Assembly: GCA_947852905.1 (NCBI GenBank)
Contig: CANTVF010000007.1
Location: 1-64,000 of the forward strand
DNA from: an uncultured Tidjanibacter sp.
GTDB taxonomy: Bacteria > Bacteroidota > Bacteroidia > Bacteroidales > Rikenellaceae
DNA: 64,000 nt
Reading direction: 5' to 3'
The notes under the pieces were generated by a model. The model saw nothing but the letters and a program-made list of their open reading frames with translations. It made no database searches and was not told where the DNA came from. The position numbers were made by a program, and so were the translations under genes. Below are positions 35,633 through 46,084 of this stretch, piece by piece. The stretch's first letter is position 1. The number at the start of each line of letters is the position of its first letter.

Positions 35633-36448
35633 TCAGTATTGTTCGTCCTCGTTGGGAAAACCGCCGCTCTTTACATCGCTTACATACTCCCCGAAAGCGT
35701 TGGCCATGACCTCGCCTATATTCGCGTAACGACGCAGGAAACGAGGCGAGAAATCGTTGGTTATTCCGAGCATGTCGTGTGCGACGAGCACCTGCCCGTC
35801 CACATAACGCCCCGCACCTATACCTATTACCGGTATGCTCAATTCTTTAGCCACACGTCCGGCCAACTGTGCCGGTATCTTTTCAAGCACGAGACCGAAA
35901 CAACCGGCCTCTTCCAGAAGATGCGCGTCTCGGACGAGTTTCTCGGCTTCGGCTTCCTCCCTCGCGCGGACGGCATAAGTTCCGTAACGATGTATCGACT
36001 GCGGCGTAAGCCCCAGATGCCCCATGACAGGAATCCCGGCACTGAGTATCCTGTCCACGGATTCCATGATCTCCTTTCCGCCCTCTATCTTCACAGCTCC
36101 GGCCTCGGTCTCCTTCATTATCCGTATCGCCGAACAAAGCGCCTCTTTGGAATTGCCCTGATACGTTCCGAAAGGCATATCGACGACTACCAAAGCACGC
36201 TTCACGGCACGGGTTACGGACTGCGCATGATATATCATCTTGTCGAGAGTCATCGGAACCGTCGTTTCGTATCCGGCTATCACATTGGCTGCGGAATCGC
36301 CTACGAGTATCACGTCTATTCCGGCACGGTCGAGAATACAGGCCATCGAATAGTCGTAACTCGTAAGCATAGCTATTTTTTCGCCGCGTTTCTTCATCTC
36401 CGACAAACGGAGCGTAGTAACGGGCCTAAGTGTTCCTTCTGTTGACAT
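35633..36448 (-). CDS. panB: 3-methyl-2-oxobutanoate hydroxymethyltransferase
   Basis: A 271-residue TIM-barrel enzyme of pantothenate synthesis. It shows the usual [14 protein letters not shown], the metal-binding VGDSAANV segment, the [29 protein letters not shown] stretch, and the [16 protein letters not shown] motif near the C terminus. It transfers a hydroxymethyl group from 5,10-methylenetetrahydrofolate to 3-methyl-2-oxobutanoate. panC and panD are not adjacent. Length is normal and the gene has its own terminator. Confidence 0.96.
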
Positions 36449-36589
36449 CGTTAAATTATATTATAGGCGGACAAAGTTATAAGACTTTTCCGATAAACGG
36501 GACAATTACTTTACGAAAGTAACTGCATGAAAAATCGAACACGGCTCTGACTGACTGTTACTCCGGCAATACCTATACGACCAAAGGAA

Positions 36590-37129
36590 CTAAAGAAGCT
36601 CGCGTCGGTAGTGACCGAACATATGCCATAACACCGCACCCGCGGATACCGCCACATTAAGCGAATGTTTAGTTCCTGCCTGCGGAATTTCGATTCCACC
36701 GTCGCACATGTCGGCCACGGACTGCGAAACGCCGTCCACCTCGTTGCCGAATACCAGCGCGTACTCCACACCCGCCTCCGGCACGAATTCATCGAGCATC
36801 ACCGCACCCTCTACCTGTTCCACGGCAATCACGCGGTATCCATTCCCCTTCATGGCGGTCACGGCCTCCGCCGTCTCGCCGTAATAACTCCACGGCACGG
36901 TATTCTCGGCACCCAACGCCGTCTTGTGCAGTTCGCGCGAAGGAGGAGTTCCCGTTATGCCGCACAGCAACAGACGCTTCACGGCAAAAGCGTCGCACGT
37001 GCGGAAAAACGAGCCCACATTATTGGCGCTGCGCACATTATCGAGTATCACCGTTACCGGAATACGCGCAGCATGCGCGAACTCTTCTACGCTCGGCCGT
37101 TGAAGTTCCTCGTTACTTATCTTTCTCAT
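36590..37129 (-). CDS. TrmH-family RNA 2'-O-methyltransferase
   Basis: A 179-residue SPOUT methyltransferase. The three family motifs are present: VILDNVRSANNVGSFFRTCDA (motif 1), the ALVFGNEVDGVS region (motif 2), and IEIPQAGTKHSLNVAVSAGAVLW (motif 3), which form the knotted SAM site. It methylates the 2'-OH of a tRNA or rRNA nucleotide; the exact target cannot be read from sequence. It lacks the N-terminal substrate-binding domain of RlmB and is a minimal form. It is divergent from hppA. Confidence 0.93.
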   Translation of the reverse strand: MRKISNEELQRPSVEEFAHAARIPVTVILDNVRSANNVGSFFRTCDAFAVKRLLLCGITGTPPSRELHKTALGAENTVPWSYYGETAEAVTAMKGNGYRVIAVEQVEGAVMLDEFVPEAGVEYALVFGNEVDGVSQSVADMCDGGIEIPQAGTKHSLNVAVSAGAVLWHMFGHYRRELL

Positions 37130-37183
37130 CGGTTATTCTGTTTTAGGCGCGAAGTGTTTTTTACGCATAATGCACCTCCGACC

Positions 37184-37214
37184 TTTGTACAGTTAAAAAA
37201 AATTTATACATTTA
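37184..37214 (+). promoter_or_regulatory. Promoter of hppA
   Basis: TTTG (37184-37187), a 19-nt spacer and TACATTTA (37207-37214) match the Bacteroidota -33/-7 pattern with one mismatch in the last base. The leader is about 70 nt and holds a small hairpin. Confidence 0.65.
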
Positions 37215-37290
37215 TGGTTTGAAGAATCGAGACCTTCGCGGTCAAAATTATCAATTATTTATTTAAAAACCGCTTAAACACATTTCGCTT

Positions 37291-39504
37291 ATGGGGAACA
37301 CTCCGACAATTTTCTGGTTGATACCCGCGGCGTCGCTTATCGCACTTGTGTTTGCCTGGATATTTTTCAGGCAAATGAAAAGGCAGAGCGAAGGAACACC
37401 GCGAATGAAAGAGATAGCTCAGTACGTGCGCGAGGGCGCAATGGCATATCTGAGACAACAGTATAAGATCGTAATAATAGTATTCGTCGTATTGGCGCTC
37501 TTCTTCGCATGGCTCGCATTCGGCCTCGGAGTACAGAACAAATGGGTGCCGTTCGCTTTCCTCACCGGCGGTTTCTTCTCAGGTCTGGCCGGATACATCG
37601 GTATGAGGACGGCTACATACGCCTCCTCCAGAACGGCGCACGCCGCCAGCCAGTCGCTCAACCGCGGTCTACAGGTAGCATTCCGCAGCGGTGCAGTCAT
37701 GGGACTCGTGGTAGTAGGACTCGGACTTTTCGATATTTCATTGTGGTACATAATACTCAACCATTTCGTCGATATCGACGGTCCGCAGAAGATGGTGGTA
37801 ATGACCACTACCATGCTTACATTCGGAATGGGGGCTTCCACGCAGGCACTCTTCGCCCGTGTCGGCGGAGGCATATACACCAAAGCAGCCGACGTAGGCG
37901 CGGACCTCGTCGGCAAGGTCGAAGCCGGAATACCGGAAGACGATCCGCGCAACCCGGCGACTATAGCCGACAATGTAGGAGACAATGTAGGAGACGTGGC
38001 CGGCATGGGCGCAGACCTTTACGAAAGCTATTGCGGCTCCATACTGGCAACCGCAGCCCTCGGTGCGGCGGCATTCATATTCGATCCGGCCATACAGATG
38101 AAAGCCGTACTCGCCCCCATGCTTATCGCCTCGGTAGGTATCATTCTTTCCGTAATAGGCATCTTCACGGTGCGCACCCGCGAAGGCGCCTCCATGAAAC
38201 AGCTGCTCGGCTCGCTCGGCTTCGGCGTGAATCTCAGTTCCATACTGATAGCCATAGCTTCGTTCGCCATTCTCTATCTGCTCGAAATGCCCAACTGGGC
38301 GTGGATAGCCGGTTCGGTAGTCATCGGCCTCGTGGCAGGCGTCATCATAGGACAGGCTACGGAATACTACACATCGCACTCATTCAAACCGACCCGCAAG
38401 ATAGCCAGCAGCGCCGAAACCGGACCGGCCACCGTGATCATCTCCGGCATCGGAATGGGCATGATTTCGACCGCGATACCAGTAATAACGATTTGCATAG
38501 CAATCATCATGTCGTTCCTGTGCGCAATAAGATTCGACGTGGCAAACATGTTGACGGCACAGAATCTCCAGATCGGTCTCTACGGTATAGCCATAGCCGC
38601 AGTTGGCATGCTCTCGACACTCGGCATCACCCTCGCGACAGACGCATACGGCCCGATAGCCGACAACGCCGGAGGCAACGCACAAATGGCAGGTCTCGGC
38701 GAGGAAGTACGCAAACGCACCGACGCACTCGACGCACTCGGCAATACGACGGCAGCCACCGGAAAAGGATTCGCGATAGGATCGGCCGCACTCACCGCAC
38801 TGGCACTGCTCGCATCGTACATAGAAGAAATAAAGATCGGCTTCGGACACCTCGGCGAGAAGACGCTGGAACTTTCGGGCGGCAGAACCGTAGAAGTAGC
38901 CAATGCTACGATACTCGACTTTATGGATTACTACCAGATAACGCTCATGAATCCTAAAGTGCTCATAGGAATATTCATGGGAGCCATGATGTCGTTCCTC
39001 TTCTGCGGCCTTACCATGAATGCCGTAGGCCGTGCCGCCCAGAGCATGGTCAACGAAGTACGCCGTCAGTTCCGCGAGATAAAAGGCATACTTACCGGTA
39101 ACGCTACGCCCGACTACGCCCGTTGCGTAGCCATATCGACCAAAGGCGCCCAGAGGGAAATGCTGATGCCGTCCCTCATAGCCATACTCGTACCGATACT
39201 TATGGGTGTCGTATTCGGTGTTTCGGGTGTTATCGGTCTGCTTGTCGGCGCCCTCGGCGCAGGATTCGTACTCGCCATTTTCATGGCCAACTCAGGCGGC
39301 GCATGGGACAATGCGAAAAAATATGTCGAAGACGGCAATTTCGGAGGTAAAGGCTCCGAAAGTCATAAGGCTACCGTCGTAGGCGACACCGTAGGCGATC
39401 CGTTCAAGGATACTTCGGGTCCTTCGCTCAACATCCTCATCAAACTCATGAGCATGGTAGCTATCGTAATGGCAGGTCTCACGGTAGGCTTCAGTCTGTT
39501 CTGA
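37291..39504 (+). CDS. hppA: Membrane-bound ion-pumping pyrophosphatase
   Basis: A 737-residue, 16-helix pump that couples pyrophosphate hydrolysis to Na+ or H+ export. The substrate site motif [20 protein letters not shown] and the following DNVGDNVGD are intact, as is the late [14 protein letters not shown] with the [15 protein letters not shown] segment. The segment [10 protein letters not shown] has Ala where K+-independent enzymes have Lys, so it should be K+-dependent. The pumped ion cannot be decided safely. Its 3' end and terminator are duplicated 3 kb downstream beyond the restriction-modification island. Confidence 0.96.
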
Positions 39505-39564
39505 TACCGACCTGCCGACTGTACAAACGCCGCAGCCCATAAACGGAGCTGCGGCGTTTGAATA
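39491..39564 (+). repeat. 74-bp direct repeat, left copy (hppA 3' end and terminator)
   Basis: Matches 42498-42571 at 71 of 74 positions. It covers the last four hppA codons, the stop and the whole terminator hairpin, and is taken as the original copy because it belongs to intact hppA. The differences are three transitions. Confidence 0.95.
39524..39560 (+). terminator. Terminator of hppA
   Basis: A 13-bp perfect stem (39524-39536 with 39548-39560) with an 11-nt loop, followed by an A/T-rich stretch. It is duplicated at 42531-42567. Confidence 0.75.
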
Positions 39565-39669
39565 AATATAAATTTAATAAGTCTGTTATTCTCAAATAAC
39601 TCTATTACAAACACCAATCATTTCAGTCATTATAAAAGCGAAAACACATAAAAAATACTAACTAAAACA

Positions 39670-40689
39670 TTATCCCAAACAGCCATTCCCTAATAACGAC
39701 AGTCGTCTGGTATTGTAACTTCCATCCGGTTTAAAAATAGCCTGATTCAATATTCTTATCTGCGATTCATTTCGGATTTCAGAAATCCGATCTATAATTT
39801 CAAGTTCTGAATAAAGGAACCAACGTTCCAATAACTCTTTATAGTTCCCCGCATCTTCTGGCCTAATATTTTGTACGTATCCAAAATATTCCATGAACTG
39901 CGGAGTTGCTATAGTATTAATAATATGAAGAATTTCATCCATAGCATTTTCACTTCCTGACAAATATGTCCACAATTCATTCGCGATCAAAATCTCTTCT
40001 GGAGCACAGAACTTCTCAGCTTCAATCAAATAATTAAGGAAACGCTCTTTATCATATCCCGTATTACTATCAGATGTTGGATCAAATGGAAATCCGAAAA
40101 AATATTTTACCTGTTTATTCGGATATAATAATTTAAGAACGGCTTTCGATTGAAGTATCTTTTGTTTTTCACTACGCATTTCCCCTGAATTCGGTCTAAC
40201 AGATTTCAACTCGATCGCAATAACTTCCTGTCCAGTTATAAACATACAATCTACCGTAAATTTTGAAGCATCTTGCATCTCACCGAATGCATTCTCTGCA
40301 AGCAATTGATCTTCAATCGAAACACATGGTGTCCTATTGCCATTTTTAAGATCAATCATTATATTAGAAATCACATTACTTTGATATTCATAAATAGTTT
40401 TACCTGAAAATGTTCTCTTTTCACCATCACACAAAATATGTGCGACTGATTCAAAAAAAGATAGTCCCAATGCAGTATTCAATCCATGCATCCAACTGCT
40501 CAGACTGATAAAATCATATATATTGCCAACTCGTCCGGACAGTTTATTTGCAAATGCATTTAAAAAAGCTATATGAAACGGAGCATTCCGATTAATACCT
40601 GACTTCTCAGGAAATGAAGCAAATCTGGAACACAAAACCTTTATAACCGCATGGGCAATCCGCTCCTTTTTATCATTAGATAACGACAT
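39670..40689 (-). CDS. TdeIII-like type II restriction endonuclease
   Basis: A 339-residue protein that resembles the TdeIII family of type II endonucleases, with the SGRVGNIYDFISLSSWMHGLNT-type N-terminal region. A PD-(D/E)XK nuclease site is visible as D147 and E160-x-K162 in the VDCMFITGQEVIAIELKS region. It starts 2 bp after the stop of the methyltransferase, so the modification enzyme is translated first, as expected for safe establishment. The gene is intact and AT-rich compared with the rest of the window. The recognition sequence cannot be read from the protein. Confidence 0.82.
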   Translation of the reverse strand: MSLSNDKKERIAHAVIKVLCSRFASFPEKSGINRNAPFHIAFLNAFANKLSGRVGNIYDFISLSSWMHGLNTALGLSFFESVAHILCDGEKRTFSGKTIYEYQSNVISNIMIDLKNGNRTPCVSIEDQLLAENAFGEMQDASKFTVDCMFITGQEVIAIELKSVRPNSGEMRSEKQKILQSKAVLKLLYPNKQVKYFFGFPFDPTSDSNTGYDKERFLNYLIEAEKFCAPEEILIANELWTYLSGSENAMDEILHIINTIATPQFMEYFGYVQNIRPEDAGNYKELLERWFLYSELEIIDRISEIRNESQIRILNQAIFKPDGSYNTRRLSLLGNGCLG

Positions 40690-40691
40690 GG

Positions 40692-42284
40692 TTATTTATT
40701 TTTAATATGGAAAATTATTTCAGCATAAGCACCTTTATCTTTTTCCGTTCTATTTAAAACCGGTCGTTTATAACGTTTAACGATACGCATATCCGCACGC
40801 TCTGCAATAGAAGGATACAAATCATACTTATCATTCGCAATCAAGAAAATATCATAATCATCTACCAAATATTTTTTTGCATTAAGCAAAACCTCAGATA
40901 TTCCGACAACATAACTGTCAAGCGCACTTTTTCCTTGACCTTTATATAGAGGTCCAATTTCCAAATCATCATGACGCTCAAACCCGAATAAATCATATGC
41001 ATAAGCATGTTGTTCATGATAATCGATCATACCTACATATGGAGGACTTGAAAATATTCCTTGTATTTTTTGTCCACTAACAATACTCCATAAATCAGGA
41101 CATTGTTCATTTAAAGCTTGTACCAAATCAATAGATCTGCTATCACCGGCCAAACAATATTGATGTGTATCTGTTTTTATTTTGGAAAATTCGGCTAATC
41201 TTACAATTGTATCTTTACTATAGGTTTTCCACCATTTTAATATTGAAAACAAAGGCTTGCAAATTTTCCCGTGTTTTCTACAATAATATGTGGTTGTTAC
41301 AGGATCTTTTAATGTAGCCAAATCTGCATGTGTCGTAGCACGACAAGAACGCATCGTGCGGCTCAATATCACATACAAAACATTTTTTATTTTCGTATCC
41401 TGCACCTGCTTAATCAGATCATACACAAAATCTAATTCACGTCTAATATGATCGGTATACCACTTTTCGATAAAATTATTGGAGTTATCCTGTAGCAACC
41501 GTATATCATATTTTTGAATTAACCTCATATATATCGGCAAAAATTCGCCAGCCTTTTCTTGACCATATACACTGTCATCCAATTGTTTCAACTGCACTTT
41601 TCTTTTGAATTCCGGTACCGGGAACCACACGTCATTAAATTTTTTCAACTCAGACAATAACTCTTCTTCGAATTCCGTAGTGCGGCTGCCTTTAATAAAA
41701 GAATTTAAAGACGACGTAATATGCTCAATCTCTTCTTTTAACCGTACAAAATCGACATATGATATTTTTACATTAGAAATCAAAGCGTTAAATGCAGAAA
41801 TATCTATACCTACAGCATGTAGCCCCAATTCGTTAGCTTGTACTAAAGTTGTTCCGCTACCACAAAATGGATCCAAAATTACATCTCCGGGCTTGAAACA
41901 TACCGAAGTCTTGAAATCGTCAACATGTTGATCCAAAAAATACTCAGCCAGTTGAGGTATAAATTTACCTTTATAAGGATGTAACCTATGTACATGCTTA
42001 GTTGTTTCTGTTTCCTTTAAATTGTCAAATGATAATCCCCAATTTAAATCCTCTCCAAGTTTTTCTTTCCATTTTTTTTCTCGTGGGCCATTCAGAGAAC
42101 TATAATAGTCAATAAGTTCTTTTTTGGATACTAATACAATCCCGTTCTCGATAAATCTATTTATTTTTCCATAATTGATAAGGTAGGCAATATTTGAACT
42201 CGTTACATTTTTGCCCAAATATTCCGAAGCCCACGCACTGGCTGCTTTTATATTAAACACATCATCCATCATTATCGCTGTCAA
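40692..42284 (-). CDS. DNA methyltransferase of the restriction-modification module
   Basis: A 530-residue SAM-dependent DNA methyltransferase, probably N4-cytosine or N6-adenine. The SAM motif DPFCGSGTT is at residues 138-146 and the catalytic SSPPY at 412-416, so motif I precedes motif IV. About 250 residues separate them, which likely hold the target-recognition region. Residues 10-60 resemble a helix-turn-helix (NVTSSNIAYLINYGKI, then VSKKELIDYY), which may bind DNA or control the operon. Alternative starts are the Met codons at residues 5 and 6. The gene is AT-rich and appears intact. Confidence 0.85.
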   Translation of the reverse strand: MTAIMMDDVFNIKAASAWASEYLGKNVTSSNIAYLINYGKINRFIENGIVLVSKKELIDYYSSLNGPREKKWKEKLGEDLNWGLSFDNLKETETTKHVHRLHPYKGKFIPQLAEYFLDQHVDDFKTSVCFKPGDVILDPFCGSGTTLVQANELGLHAVGIDISAFNALISNVKISYVDFVRLKEEIEHITSSLNSFIKGSRTTEFEEELLSELKKFNDVWFPVPEFKRKVQLKQLDDSVYGQEKAGEFLPIYMRLIQKYDIRLLQDNSNNFIEKWYTDHIRRELDFVYDLIKQVQDTKIKNVLYVILSRTMRSCRATTHADLATLKDPVTTTYYCRKHGKICKPLFSILKWWKTYSKDTIVRLAEFSKIKTDTHQYCLAGDSRSIDLVQALNEQCPDLWSIVSGQKIQGIFSSPPYVGMIDYHEQHAYAYDLFGFERHDDLEIGPLYKGQGKSALDSYVVGISEVLLNAKKYLVDDYDIFLIANDKYDLYPSIAERADMRIVKRYKRPVLNRTEKDKGAYAEIIFHIKNK

Positions 42285-42497
42285 TCAATATTTGCCTACG
42301 ATCAATATAAAAACTGAGTTGCTAAAATACCTTTTTGAATGAACATCTTGTTATCCGGAAAATTTAAAATCTTCGTGATTAGCAAATCATACAAATGATA
42401 TTTACTAAAAACTCAATATATGCTAACAAAGATACGCATTCATTTACTCATACACAAAACCACTAACATTCCACGCATTATAATTACCATGTGGCAC

Positions 42498-42571
42498 TCA
42501 GCCTGTTCTGATACCGACCCGCCAACTGTACAAACGCCGCAGCCCATAAACGGAGCTGCGGCGTTTGAATA
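42498..42571 (+). repeat. 74-bp direct repeat, right copy
   Basis: Carries the last hppA codons, its stop and the 13-bp terminator stem (42531-42543 with 42555-42567), but no hppA gene is attached. Differs from the left copy at three positions. Confidence 0.95.
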
Positions 42572-42606
42572 TGAGGCTACAGCAAACATTCACCGAGGCA
42601 GATACT

Positions 42607-42637
42607 ATTGAAATAGCGTTTTATTTTAATACTTTTG
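42607..42637 (+). promoter_or_regulatory. Promoter of the barrel-protein gene
   Basis: ATTG (42607-42610), a 19-nt spacer and TACTTTTG (42630-42637) fit the -33/-7 pattern well. It lies 36 bp outside the right repeat. The leader is about 65 nt. Confidence 0.75.
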
Positions 42638-42706
42638 CAGTATATGTAAAAAGCACGCCGCCAACCGTTACCGCGGCGCGGTAAATTTCACTCTACATAT
42701 ACTGAC

Positions 42707-43810
42707 ATGAAATATTTTACAAGACTCGCCATACTATCCGCCATGCTCTCGGTGTCTTGCCTTGCATCGCATGCCCAGAAATTCGTTTGGGACGCCGATT
42801 TCGACTACAAGTTCGACAACAGGGAATACGCCTCCATGAAGAATCCGTATACGTCGGCTACATATTTCAGTGTCAGACTTACTCCGGAAATAGGTTTGGA
42901 ATGGGGTAAAGGAATGAAACGCCACCGTATTATGGCAGGTGCCGACGTAATCATAGATTTCGGCACCAATTCGCAACGCATACCGGAAATGGTCCTTTAT
43001 TACAACTATATACGACGAGGCGACGCCACGACATTCGGCGTATGGGCAGGACGTTTCCCGCGCACAAACATGATCGGCACATATTCCAACGCTTTCTTCA
43101 GCGAATACGTGACCTATTACGACAGCAATCTGGACGGTCTGTTGATAAACTATGCAGGTCACAACGGATACGTGGAACTCGTCTGCGACTGGAACAGCAT
43201 GTATGCGGCCGATCGACGGGAAAAATTCATGATTTTCTCATCCGGTCTGCTGAATCGCGGCAGACTGTACGGCGGATACAACTTCAGCATGTTCCATCAT
43301 TCGGTAAGCGGTACGGAAAAGGGCGTCGTAGATAACCTGCTCATATATCCTTACATCGGCTTCGACATGTCATACTGGCCTACGTTATTCCCGACATTAT
43401 ACATACAGGCCGGTTGGCTACAGGCTTTTCAGAACGACCGAGTATACGTCGGCAAATACGTCACGCCCGGCGGCTTTCAGCTCGAAGCCCGCGCCGAGAC
43501 ACGCTGGGGATTCGGAGTGTACGAAACGTTGTACCTCGGCGGCAACCTGATGCCGTATTATTACAGCACCCTTCCCGACCAACCGGTATACGGAGACGGG
43601 CTCTACTTCGGAGAACCGTTTTACCGTACCGAAGACGGAATATACAATCGTCTGGAAATATACTGGAAACGTAACTTCACTTCCGACATATCGCTGAAAA
43701 TATCGTCGGTACATCACTACGACGGCAATTCATGGGGGTGGCAACAGCTTCTGGAACTGCAAGTCAAAATATCCGACCGAATGTTCAAACACCGCCGACC
43801 GCGAGAATAA
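42707..43810 (+). CDS. Predicted outer-membrane beta-barrel protein, family unknown
   Basis: A 367-residue protein with a signal peptide (cleavage near SHA, residue 23). The mature part is made of alternating aromatic-rich strands (ATYFSVRLTPEIGLEW, DLLIYPYIGFDMSYW-like, ISLKISSVHHY) and short turns, typical of outer-membrane barrels. I do not recognise the family. There is no TonB box or plug domain, so it is not a TonB-dependent receptor. It has its own promoter. The final strand does not end in Phe; a short basic tail follows it. Confidence 0.65.
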   Translation: MKYFTRLAILSAMLSVSCLASHAQKFVWDADFDYKFDNREYASMKNPYTSATYFSVRLTPEIGLEWGKGMKRHRIMAGADVIIDFGTNSQRIPEMVLYYNYIRRGDATTFGVWAGRFPRTNMIGTYSNAFFSEYVTYYDSNLDGLLINYAGHNGYVELVCDWNSMYAADRREKFMIFSSGLLNRGRLYGGYNFSMFHHSVSGTEKGVVDNLLIYPYIGFDMSYWPTLFPTLYIQAGWLQAFQNDRVYVGKYVTPGGFQLEARAETRWGFGVYETLYLGGNLMPYYYSTLPDQPVYGDGLYFGEPFYRTEDGIYNRLEIYWKRNFTSDISLKISSVHHYDGNSWGWQQLLELQVKISDRMFKHRRPRE

Positions 43811-43892
43811 CAGCAACGAACATATGCGGCTATACAATGCGCGGATCACGTTATTCACGGGAAGAGATTGCCAAGCGGTACATACAAAACAA

Positions 43893-43901
43893 GGGGGGGG
43901 G
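43893..43901. repeat. Homopolymer run of 9 G
   Basis: Nine G in a row, about 10 bp before copy B of the element remnant. Confidence 0.5.
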
Positions 43902-43910
43902 TATGAGAAC

Positions 43911-44063
43911 GCTAAGTTTTGACACAACCATTTTAAGGCGGTGAGAACGGATACAATGCAATGACGTGATTGCAATGGCTACATGAGAGTTTACCGAGGT
44001 AAATGACTTAGCCCGCATCAAAATAAAAACGCAGCAGATTATCCGTTATGACATACCCTCGTT
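43911..44063 (+). pseudogene. Degenerate element remnant, copy B
   Basis: Aligns to copy A (32739-32895) over about 150 bp at roughly two-thirds identity by eye. The frame from 43999 encodes VNDLARIKIKTQQIIRYDIPS and stops at 44074-44076. An upstream stop (TGA at 43984-43986) breaks the frame, so this copy is inactive. Confidence 0.5.
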
Positions 44064-44155
44064 TATCGTAATAGCATAGCGGTTACACTACGTCAGATCT
44101 CCGTAATTACCGAATCCTCCGCTCACACTTTTACAGCACTCGGGCGCGTTCCGCG

Positions 44156-44557
44156 TCAGAAACCGAACAGTTCCAAAAACCATTTCGGCGCGCGTATGGG
44201 TCGACGTGTGGCGGCATCTACGAATACGAGAACCACACGACCGGTATTGATCTTATCGCCAGCCTCGTTATATATTTCGTGGTCGAAAGTCAACTTGACG
44301 CCGGGTTTCTCGGCGACACGTATCTTTACCGTCAACAGATCGTCGTAATACGCCGGAGCTATATAATTCATGGATACCTCGCGAACGGGCAACATGACGC
44401 CCATGGCCTCCATTTCACGATAGGAAATGCCGCGCGAACGCATCATCTCCGTGCGGGCTACCTCGTAATAATTTACGTAATTGGAGTGATGCACCACTCC
44501 CATATTGTCGGTCTCCTTGTAACGTACCCTTATCTTAACTTCATATTCCGTCATCAT
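44156..44557 (-). CDS. YbgC/FadM-family acyl-CoA thioesterase
   Basis: A 133-residue hot-dog fold thioesterase. The family motif VRYKETDNMGVVHHSNYVNYYEVAR includes the catalytic Asp region near residue 16, and the beta strands that follow are complete. It hydrolyses acyl-CoA or acyl-ACP; E. coli YbgC acts near the Tol-Pal system, but no tol genes are seen here. It is the last gene of the minus-strand run that begins at dnaN, with a 102-bp gap after the ribF-like gene. The second Met is an equally possible start. Confidence 0.9.
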   Translation of the reverse strand: MMTEYEVKIRVRYKETDNMGVVHHSNYVNYYEVARTEMMRSRGISYREMEAMGVMLPVREVSMNYIAPAYYDDLLTVKIRVAEKPGVKLTFDHEIYNEAGDKINTGRVVLVFVDAATRRPIRAPKWFLELFGF

Positions 44558-44659
44558 AGCGTCTATAATCCGTTATTCACGCAACGTAATTCCTTTCTGA
44601 ATTCCATGTACGGCAAGTCTGAACGCTCCGCCACAAAGTAACGACAGCAACCCGTCGTT

Positions 44660-45424
44660 CTACTCGAAAGTCATCATCACATCTTTCATCTCGCCTGACA
44701 ACTCCGATGACAACCGCAAGGTTCCGTCCCCACCGACATACAATATGCCCGGCACGGAATTCCCGTGGGCAGACACCTTCACGGCATACTCCCCTGCTGC
44801 AGGCAACAATTTCGCCTTGTCTTCGATAATCACTCTGCCGTCGCCGCACAAATCCCCGATAACTATGTAACCGCGCGTGAGCATTTCGTGCGCCAGCTCC
44901 ATATTTCCTTCCGCAATAACGTTACGCACTACGGTAGAACTTACCTTTTCGTTTCCCACATCCCTGCGCGATACGCGCTCGGACACGAAACCGTACTTGG
45001 GCTGTAAATCGAGCATGGAGAAAAAATCGCCGTGATCGCTTCCGAGATGATGATTGTAACCGACAACGAAGTATTTCATCCCTATACGCCCGACGAGTAT
45101 TTCGCCTACGAATTCCGCTGCCGTCATGGCAGCCAGCTTTGCATCGAAAGGCAACACTACGCATACATCTATTCCTATCTCTTCCAACAGGAAAAGTTTC
45201 TCCTTCAGCGTATTGAGCAATTTAACATCGCCGCCGCGCGCCAACACCTGACGCGGGTGAGGCCAGAAAGTGACCACTACGCTCTGTCCGTCGATCTCCA
45301 CCGCACGCGAACGTACCACATCGAGCAAGGCGCGATGTCCGTAGTGCAGGCCGTCGTAAGATCCGACCGTAACAACGGCATTATCCGACTTGACTATATC
45401 TTCCGTTGTATAATAAACTTTCAT
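44660..45424 (-). CDS. RibF-like FAD synthetase with degenerate riboflavin kinase domain
   Basis: A 254-residue protein. Residues 1-185 form a complete FMN adenylyltransferase domain: nucleotide-binding GSYDGLHYGH (residues 22-31), the YNHHLGSDHGD loop, and the VSSTVVRNVIAEG motif. The C-terminal part is only about 65 residues and lacks the PTAN motif and the conserved catalytic Glu region of riboflavin kinase, so it should not phosphorylate riboflavin. Full RibF is about 310 residues. It may make FAD only, beside another complete RibF elsewhere. It follows rex by 18 bp. Confidence 0.85.
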   Translation of the reverse strand: MKVYYTTEDIVKSDNAVVTVGSYDGLHYGHRALLDVVRSRAVEIDGQSVVVTFWPHPRQVLARGGDVKLLNTLKEKLFLLEEIGIDVCVVLPFDAKLAAMTAAEFVGEILVGRIGMKYFVVGYNHHLGSDHGDFFSMLDLQPKYGFVSERVSRRDVGNEKVSSTVVRNVIAEGNMELAHEMLTRGYIVIGDLCGDGRVIIEDKAKLLPAAGEYAVKVSAHGNSVPGILYVGGDGTLRLSSELSGEMKDVMMTFE

Positions 45425-45442
45425 CGCTCTCCGATTTCAAGA

Positions 45443-46084
45443 TCACATGTCGTTGTTCTCCTCGTTTTCCTTTACGAAATACGCCACCTTTTCGAGCAGT
45501 GTGGTAATATCGTAATTCTCCACCACTATGCCGAGCGGGAAATTGAGCGGTTTGGAAGTAAAGTTAAGCACACCCTTGATACCGGCATTGACAATCGGCA
45601 CTACCAGATCGGCAGCCACCCTCGACGGACACGAAAGCACGGCTATGTTTATATCCATAGAAGCCACGTCGGCTTCGAAATCGTCCATGCTGTAGCAGGG
45701 AATATCGTCTATGGTGGTGCCTACCTTGGCCGGATCCACGTCGAATGCGGCCACGATTTTCAGATTCAACCCCTTGCCGTTGAAATAACGGGTGATAGCC
45801 TGCCCCAGATGTCCCATGCCTATTACGGCTATATTGACCGGATTGGGACTGTCGAGTATGTTGTTGATGAACTCGATAAGCACCTCCACATCGTATCCTT
45901 TCTTCGTATCGCTCGAAAATCCTATGAGCATCAGATCGCGGCGCACCTGTACCGCGGTAATGCCGTGTATGCCGGCCAGTACGTGGGAAAAGATATGGGA
46001 AATTCCCTGCTGGTGAAGGTTCATCAGAGTCCGGCGATATTCGCTCAGACGTTCTATTGTCTTTTCGGGAATATTGTTAGGCAT
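45443..46084 (-). CDS. rex: Redox-sensing transcriptional repressor Rex
   Basis: A 213-residue Rex. Residues 1-80 form the winged helix (LSEYRRTLMNLHQQGISHIFSHVLA, then GITAVQVRRDLMLIG). Residues 85-213 form the NAD(H)-binding Rossmann domain with VIGMGHLGQAI and the C-terminal swapped helix. Rex senses the NADH/NAD+ ratio and represses fermentation and respiration genes when NADH is low. No clear Rex palindrome (TTGTGAA...) was spotted nearby. It lies 12 bp after the LysM gene and 18 bp before the ribF-like gene. Confidence 0.96.
   Translation of the reverse strand: MPNNIPEKTIERLSEYRRTLMNLHQQGISHIFSHVLAGIHGITAVQVRRDLMLIGFSSDTKKGYDVEVLIEFINNILDSPNPVNIAVIGMGHLGQAITRYFNGKGLNLKIVAAFDVDPAKVGTTIDDIPCYSMDDFEADVASMDINIAVLSCPSRVAADLVVPIVNAGIKGVLNFTSKPLNFPLGIVVENYDITTLLEKVAYFVKENEENNDM

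Follow-up and report, generated by a model that had tools for sequence, protein, structure and literature searches.

Restriction-modification (RM) systems are described as inserting with long and variable target duplications, on the order of 100 bp, in PMC3874152, and PMC3031569 and PMC1643837 state similarly; each of these papers refers to Nobusato et al. 2000. The cases set out there come from Helicobacter pylori, where long direct repeats of about 100 bp are reported to surround the RM module and, of two genomes compared, just one has the duplication (PMC3031569, PMC3874152, PMC1643837). The locus analyzed here, which lies in a window of 64,000 nucleotides (the whole stretch of DNA that was analyzed), resembles the H. 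pylori insertions in the first respect and, it would seem, in the second. It differs from them in its Bacteroidales host, in its enzymes, which belong to the TdeIII family, in a repeat that consists of a gene end plus a terminator, and in its empty site, which here is seen in other species only.

Insertion with long target duplication is also characterized by the absence of a transposase or integrase. Islands moved by tyrosine integrases into the 3' ends of genes likewise are flanked by direct repeats, which restore the 3' end of the gene. Our locus shares such 3'-end-restoring repeats with these islands and differs from them in that neither an integrase nor a shared core was seen. As for TdeIII-type RM systems (PF09520), the restriction endonuclease (REase) in the window spans nearly the whole profile, and its methyltransferase (MTase) partner recurs beside such a gene in many species; a literature search on TdeIII found nothing. 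This manner of insertion is one already described for RM modules and is probably seen here with another enzyme family.

Anatomy of the module and its flanking repeats

The features of the locus are collected in Table 1. An earlier note on this DNA had placed a low-GC pair of MTase and TdeIII-family REase genes between two 74-bp direct repeats, and our alignment confirms this arrangement: the copies align without gaps at 96% identity, and the three mismatches are all transitions (39495 T/42502 C, 39513 T/42520 C, and 39517 G/42524 A). It had further held that the repeat covers the end of hppA, its stop codon, and its terminator, which is what the sequence contains, namely the final three hppA sense codons with part of the preceding codon, the TGA stop (39502-39504), and, further on, a hairpin (39524-39560 in copy 1 and 42531-42567 in copy 2). 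In each hairpin, an 11-base loop closes a perfect stem of 13 bp, and the structure folds well on either strand. No Rfam family matched between positions 37000 and 45000 of the window at the gathering score, and no exact match to the hairpin sequence occurred among the viral contigs. A search of the genome (2.24 Mb, E <= 0.001) gave no third place for the 74-bp repeat, and comparing 123 kb of the contig with itself by blastn, with 15-base words, gave no other direct repeat of at least 30 bp and at least 80% identity within 20 kb.

Table 1. Features of the hppA locus and of the RM module in the window
Feature	Coordinates	Strand	Basis
hppA, membrane pyrophosphatase; 3' end is the putative target	37291..39504	plus	PF03030 E 3.5e-273, NF001954
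Repeat copy 1: last hppA codons, stop, and terminator-like hairpin	39491..39564	plus	alignment; fold z -6.6 on the plus strand
Inserted DNA between the repeats, 2933 bp, GC 0.32-0.35	39565..42497		composition; not in empty-order relatives
Restriction endonuclease, TdeIII family, 339 aa	39670..40689	minus	PF09520 RE_TdeIII E 5.9e-50
DNA methyltransferase, N6/N4 type, 530 aa	40692..42284	minus	PF01555 E 1.9e-13
Candidate module promoter, Bacteroidota type, TTTG-N20-TANNTTTG	42427..42458	minus	pattern match to the consensus
Repeat copy 2, 71/74 identical to copy 1	42498..42571	plus	alignment, genome search, folding
Outer-membrane-like gene ("barrel gene" in the earlier note); next after hppA in empty-order relatives	42707..43810	plus	

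The DNA between the repeats stands out in composition, with a GC content of 0.32-0.35 compared with 0.54-0.57 in hppA (37500-39499) and 0.47-0.51 from 42500 onward. Its REase aligns to positions 2-241 of the 242 positions of PF09520 with a score of 170.6 bits (curated cut-off, 27.2), and the PF01555 MTase adjoins it, so that these features of a TdeIII type II RM system are present. The two genes are arranged in tandem. The MTase gene starts with TTG, with an in-frame ATG further on at 42272, and its product is 66% identical to the homologue in G056, which belongs to the same order as the host and is the Barnesiella contig of locus L127. The pattern of the candidate promoter, derived from what we take to be the Bacteroidota consensus, has four matches in the window against a mean of 1.2 expected, and at least four were obtained in 1 of 100 shuffles. 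Apart from the two genes, the only open reading frames of at least 60 codons are one of 108 codons antisense to the MTase gene and two that cross the edges of the insert. The module is probably self-contained, with MTase and REase driven from one promoter inside the insert. No transposase or integrase was found among the open reading frames of at least 60 codons or by Pfam analysis of the two genes, in agreement with what had been noted before.

The surroundings are of housekeeping character, with genes of the ketopantoate hydroxymethyltransferase and SpoU methylase families on one side and genes for a thioesterase, an FAD synthetase, and a protein that we presume to be Rex-like on the other; there is no integrase among the nine genes identified from 35633 to 46084. 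A Pfam search with the product of the outer-membrane-like gene downstream of the insert gave no match.

Empty gene order in relatives and possible traces of age

The earlier note had proposed to look for an empty site with one copy of the 74-bp sequence, and the empty gene order was found in relatives. A match to the downstream gene was present in 43 of them, and the loci fetched for this gene, 29 in all, include 10 in which hppA lies within the 1.5-kb flank and in which the module is absent. Two of these, G010 and G003, are of the same genus as the host and give the best matches of the downstream gene; the distance from the hppA stop to the downstream-gene match is 184 bp in the former and 193 bp in the latter, compared with 195 bp in the window after removal of the insert and one repeat. 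The remaining eight have gaps of 115-238 bp in six cases and of 419 and 707 bp in two. Some of the downstream-gene matches do not start at the first residue of the protein but between a few and 22 residues further in. The 19 remaining loci of the 29, some of them of the same genus, do not have hppA beside the downstream gene; in several species the two are on different contigs (G002, G006, G014, and G015), and in G030 they are about 27 kb apart.

Under a strict stem test, the ten relatives selected for having both genes together show one hairpin in seven cases, none in two, and two in one, and the rejoined window shows the 13-bp stem plus a 7-bp one. The 74-bp repeat itself was not found in the relatives, and the matches stop in or soon after the end of hppA; from these alignments we judge that the sequence is too diverged for detection. 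In a set of 100 genomes including that of the host, the TdeIII REase was found only in the host genome, in G056, and weakly in G085, and long MTase matches were confined to the same three; G093 gave a fragment, and the matches in further genomes were short, weak ones to other methyltransferases. None of the genomes searched had two repeat copies without the island, and none had the island at this position between different flanks. Because the closest relatives, which lack the module, keep a near-equal distance between hppA and the downstream gene, and because the composition of the insert differs, the comparison of these genomes makes an insertion between the two genes well supported.

The host DNA bears a further mark. 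In 123 kb of it, taking in the window and its contig up to 123000, GGNCC, which we take to be the TdeIII recognition site, occurs 107 times where 273.5 occurrences are expected under a Markov model, and this ratio of 0.39 is the lowest of 16 sites of the same form, with all four middle bases depleted. The ratio is 0.54-0.81 in six relatives without the module (40-80 kb each). Since GGNCC is also the lowest of the 16 in G003 and G010, and since GGWCC is more depleted than GGSCC in G003, G010, and G030, part of the depletion may be shared with relatives or have another cause. If the site is as we assume, the module has probably long been active in its host. The depletion and the three transitions between the repeat copies suggest some age, without dating the event.

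TdeIII-type modules in other genomes

A pattern-based scan of species genomes yielded 53 loci with relatives of the MTase. According to the record titles, their hosts include Bacteroidales, Clostridia, Treponema, Planctomycetaceae, Desulfamplus, and others, which we presume to represent several phyla. A TdeIII-related gene and the MTase occur together in 48 of 58 sources (the 53 loci, the window, and four stretches), a count that includes the window and in which one contig is counted twice. Across L097-L149 the MTase family pairs with REases of near 340 aa or near 260 aa, as seen at their C-termini, and L131 carries both types. Carriage on mobile replicons was considered and set aside, as 19 plasmid records match only partly, none covering 80% of the protein, and the MTase is without a match in the phage collection; a scan of viral contigs that relied on just two peptide patterns, derived from the sequences of the window and of G056, likewise gave no relative.

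Left and right flanks of up to 1.5 kb were compared in 42 modules including that of the window, after L114, L139, L143, L145, and L147 (short flanks) and L127 (same contig as L085) had been left out of the 48; the damaged modules L087, L088, and L133 were retained, and where a contig ended within 1.5 kb, the shorter flank was taken as it stood. The flank-repeat score is 65 for the window and 23 for L133, and the best of 1,722 mismatched flank pairs reaches 16. At shifted places in the same loci, 3 of 986 score at least 23, one of which (L146) equals the window's 65, and 7 of 304 have a repeat of at least 34 bits, among them L119, whose 189 bits exceed the 121 of the window; overlapping shifted places are not independent of each other. 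By both measures, local repeats are less rare in other genomes than in that of our host. With the window counted, tight repeats flank 2 of 42 modules compared with 3 of 986 shifted places (p 0.015). The window, however, is the case that prompted the family test, and without it the proportion is 1 of 41, which is no significant excess (p 0.15). Under the looser criterion of at least 34 bits, the comparison is 3 of 42 against 7 of 304 (p 0.11), or 2 of 41 with the window left out (p 0.29), and 39 of the 41 other modules have no such repeat in their flanks. The best of the shorter duplications, one of 14 bp at L102, is expected by chance among 42 tests. Support for the window's case comes from the anatomy of the locus and from the empty gene order rather than from a habit of the whole family.

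At L133, the module is bounded by an exact 23-bp repeat that covers the 3' end of murD; the repeat starts with the final codon of the left-hand gene and includes the terminal 13 bp of murD, which lies convergently on the right, and the murD of a relative (G105) has the same terminal codons as that of L133. An empty site was not found, in that murD is conserved in relatives and the tRNA side too in G106, but the intervening piece differs, and the locus is a variable one. L133 is likely a second insertion event with target duplication. The insertion point (L133:9893-9931) holds inverted arms, CCGCGAGCTT and AAGCTCGCGG, in the coding ends of the two convergent genes, and by our reading of these arms the target may, here too, be a terminator. 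In the same module, the frame of the TdeIII-like REase (L133:11515-12602) is broken into two overlapping frames, and the MTase frame is whole.

Repeats of 133-142 bp also lie on both sides of the module at L138. There, a tRNA-Ser(GGA) gene is followed by tandem 142-bp units of tRNA tail plus terminator (L138:9095-9592), and one more such unit lies beyond the RM module (L138:12745-12886). We did not count L138 as a further duplication case because its repeats belong to a tandem family, built from tRNA-Ser tails and terminators, that has matches in other genomes.

Mode of entry and alternative explanations

We consider it probable that the RM module came to lie between hppA and the downstream gene through an insertion that duplicated a long target (74 bp). 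Before this event, the site would have held a single copy of the hppA end and terminator, and the 74-bp segment would have been copied as the module went in, perhaps through staggered breaks or replication-linked repair. Such a site would be tolerated because hppA would still end in its own stop and terminator and the downstream gene would still have its promoter, and the module, judging from its position, may be insulated by the two terminators. The earlier note had seen in the locus the signature of insertion with long target duplication; of this claim, the insertion itself stands, on the empty gene order and the GC step, and the locus fits the published kind, but the copying step is one that we only infer. 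An unlikely, though not negligible, alternative is import by recombination, in which a donor strain or species carried the module behind its hppA and the module, together with one unit of hppA end and terminator, was integrated by homologous crossing-over into the one copy of the host, so that one of the present copies would be partly of donor origin. All three mismatches fall at the left end of the repeat, within the first 27 of its 74 positions (chance about 0.05), and the hppA frame continues to the left of copy 2 for two codons, Val-Ala, where the hppA of the host has Val-Gly; of the 20 hppA ends from relatives, 15 have Ala at this position and none has Gly. The probability of Val-Ala given the local base composition is about 0.0006, for a pattern spotted after the fact. 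These codons hint at an origin of copy 2, in whole or in part, from another hppA, and since they do so, import stays alive as a model; a length of 74 bp is, moreover, known to suffice for recombination. Yet only 3 of the 7 bases to the left of the repeat match between the copies, which is near chance, none of the 100 genomes searched, that of the host included, offers a donor with the module at hppA, and import merely shifts the origin of the first duplication further back.

We hold it very improbable that an integrase acting in trans placed the module by site-specific integration with the 3' end of hppA as attachment site, even though the repeat spans a gene 3' end and the L138 module is located among tRNA-Ser tail and terminator repeats. 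No integrase is encoded in the insert or among its identified neighbors, the repeats of the window and L133 have different lengths (74 and 23 bp) and, by eye, no common core, and the repeat at L138 is part of a separate tandem family that other genomes also match. That the repeat pair arose by a later, unrelated duplication of the terminator beside an older insertion, or by chance, would be in keeping with the 39 other modules that have no flanking repeats and with the local repeats of similar score at shifted places in other genomes; we nevertheless deem this quite improbable, given that the pair is unique in the genome, that it bounds the insert on both sides, and that one copy is the own end of hppA.

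Taking duplication upon insertion as the preferred reading for the window, and L133 as the likely second event, one may speculate that TdeIII-type modules are transposase-free units that preferentially insert at terminator hairpins just past the 3' ends of genes and duplicate about 20-80 bp of the target, both neighbors keeping working ends. We give this generalization little credence, and the preference for terminators is an idea drawn from two cases only. How RM modules that lack a recombinase move between genomes is an old question, to which this locus contributes a clean Bacteroidales example, together with a likely second case in the same enzyme family, and its defined repeats allow tests of excision or amplification of the module.
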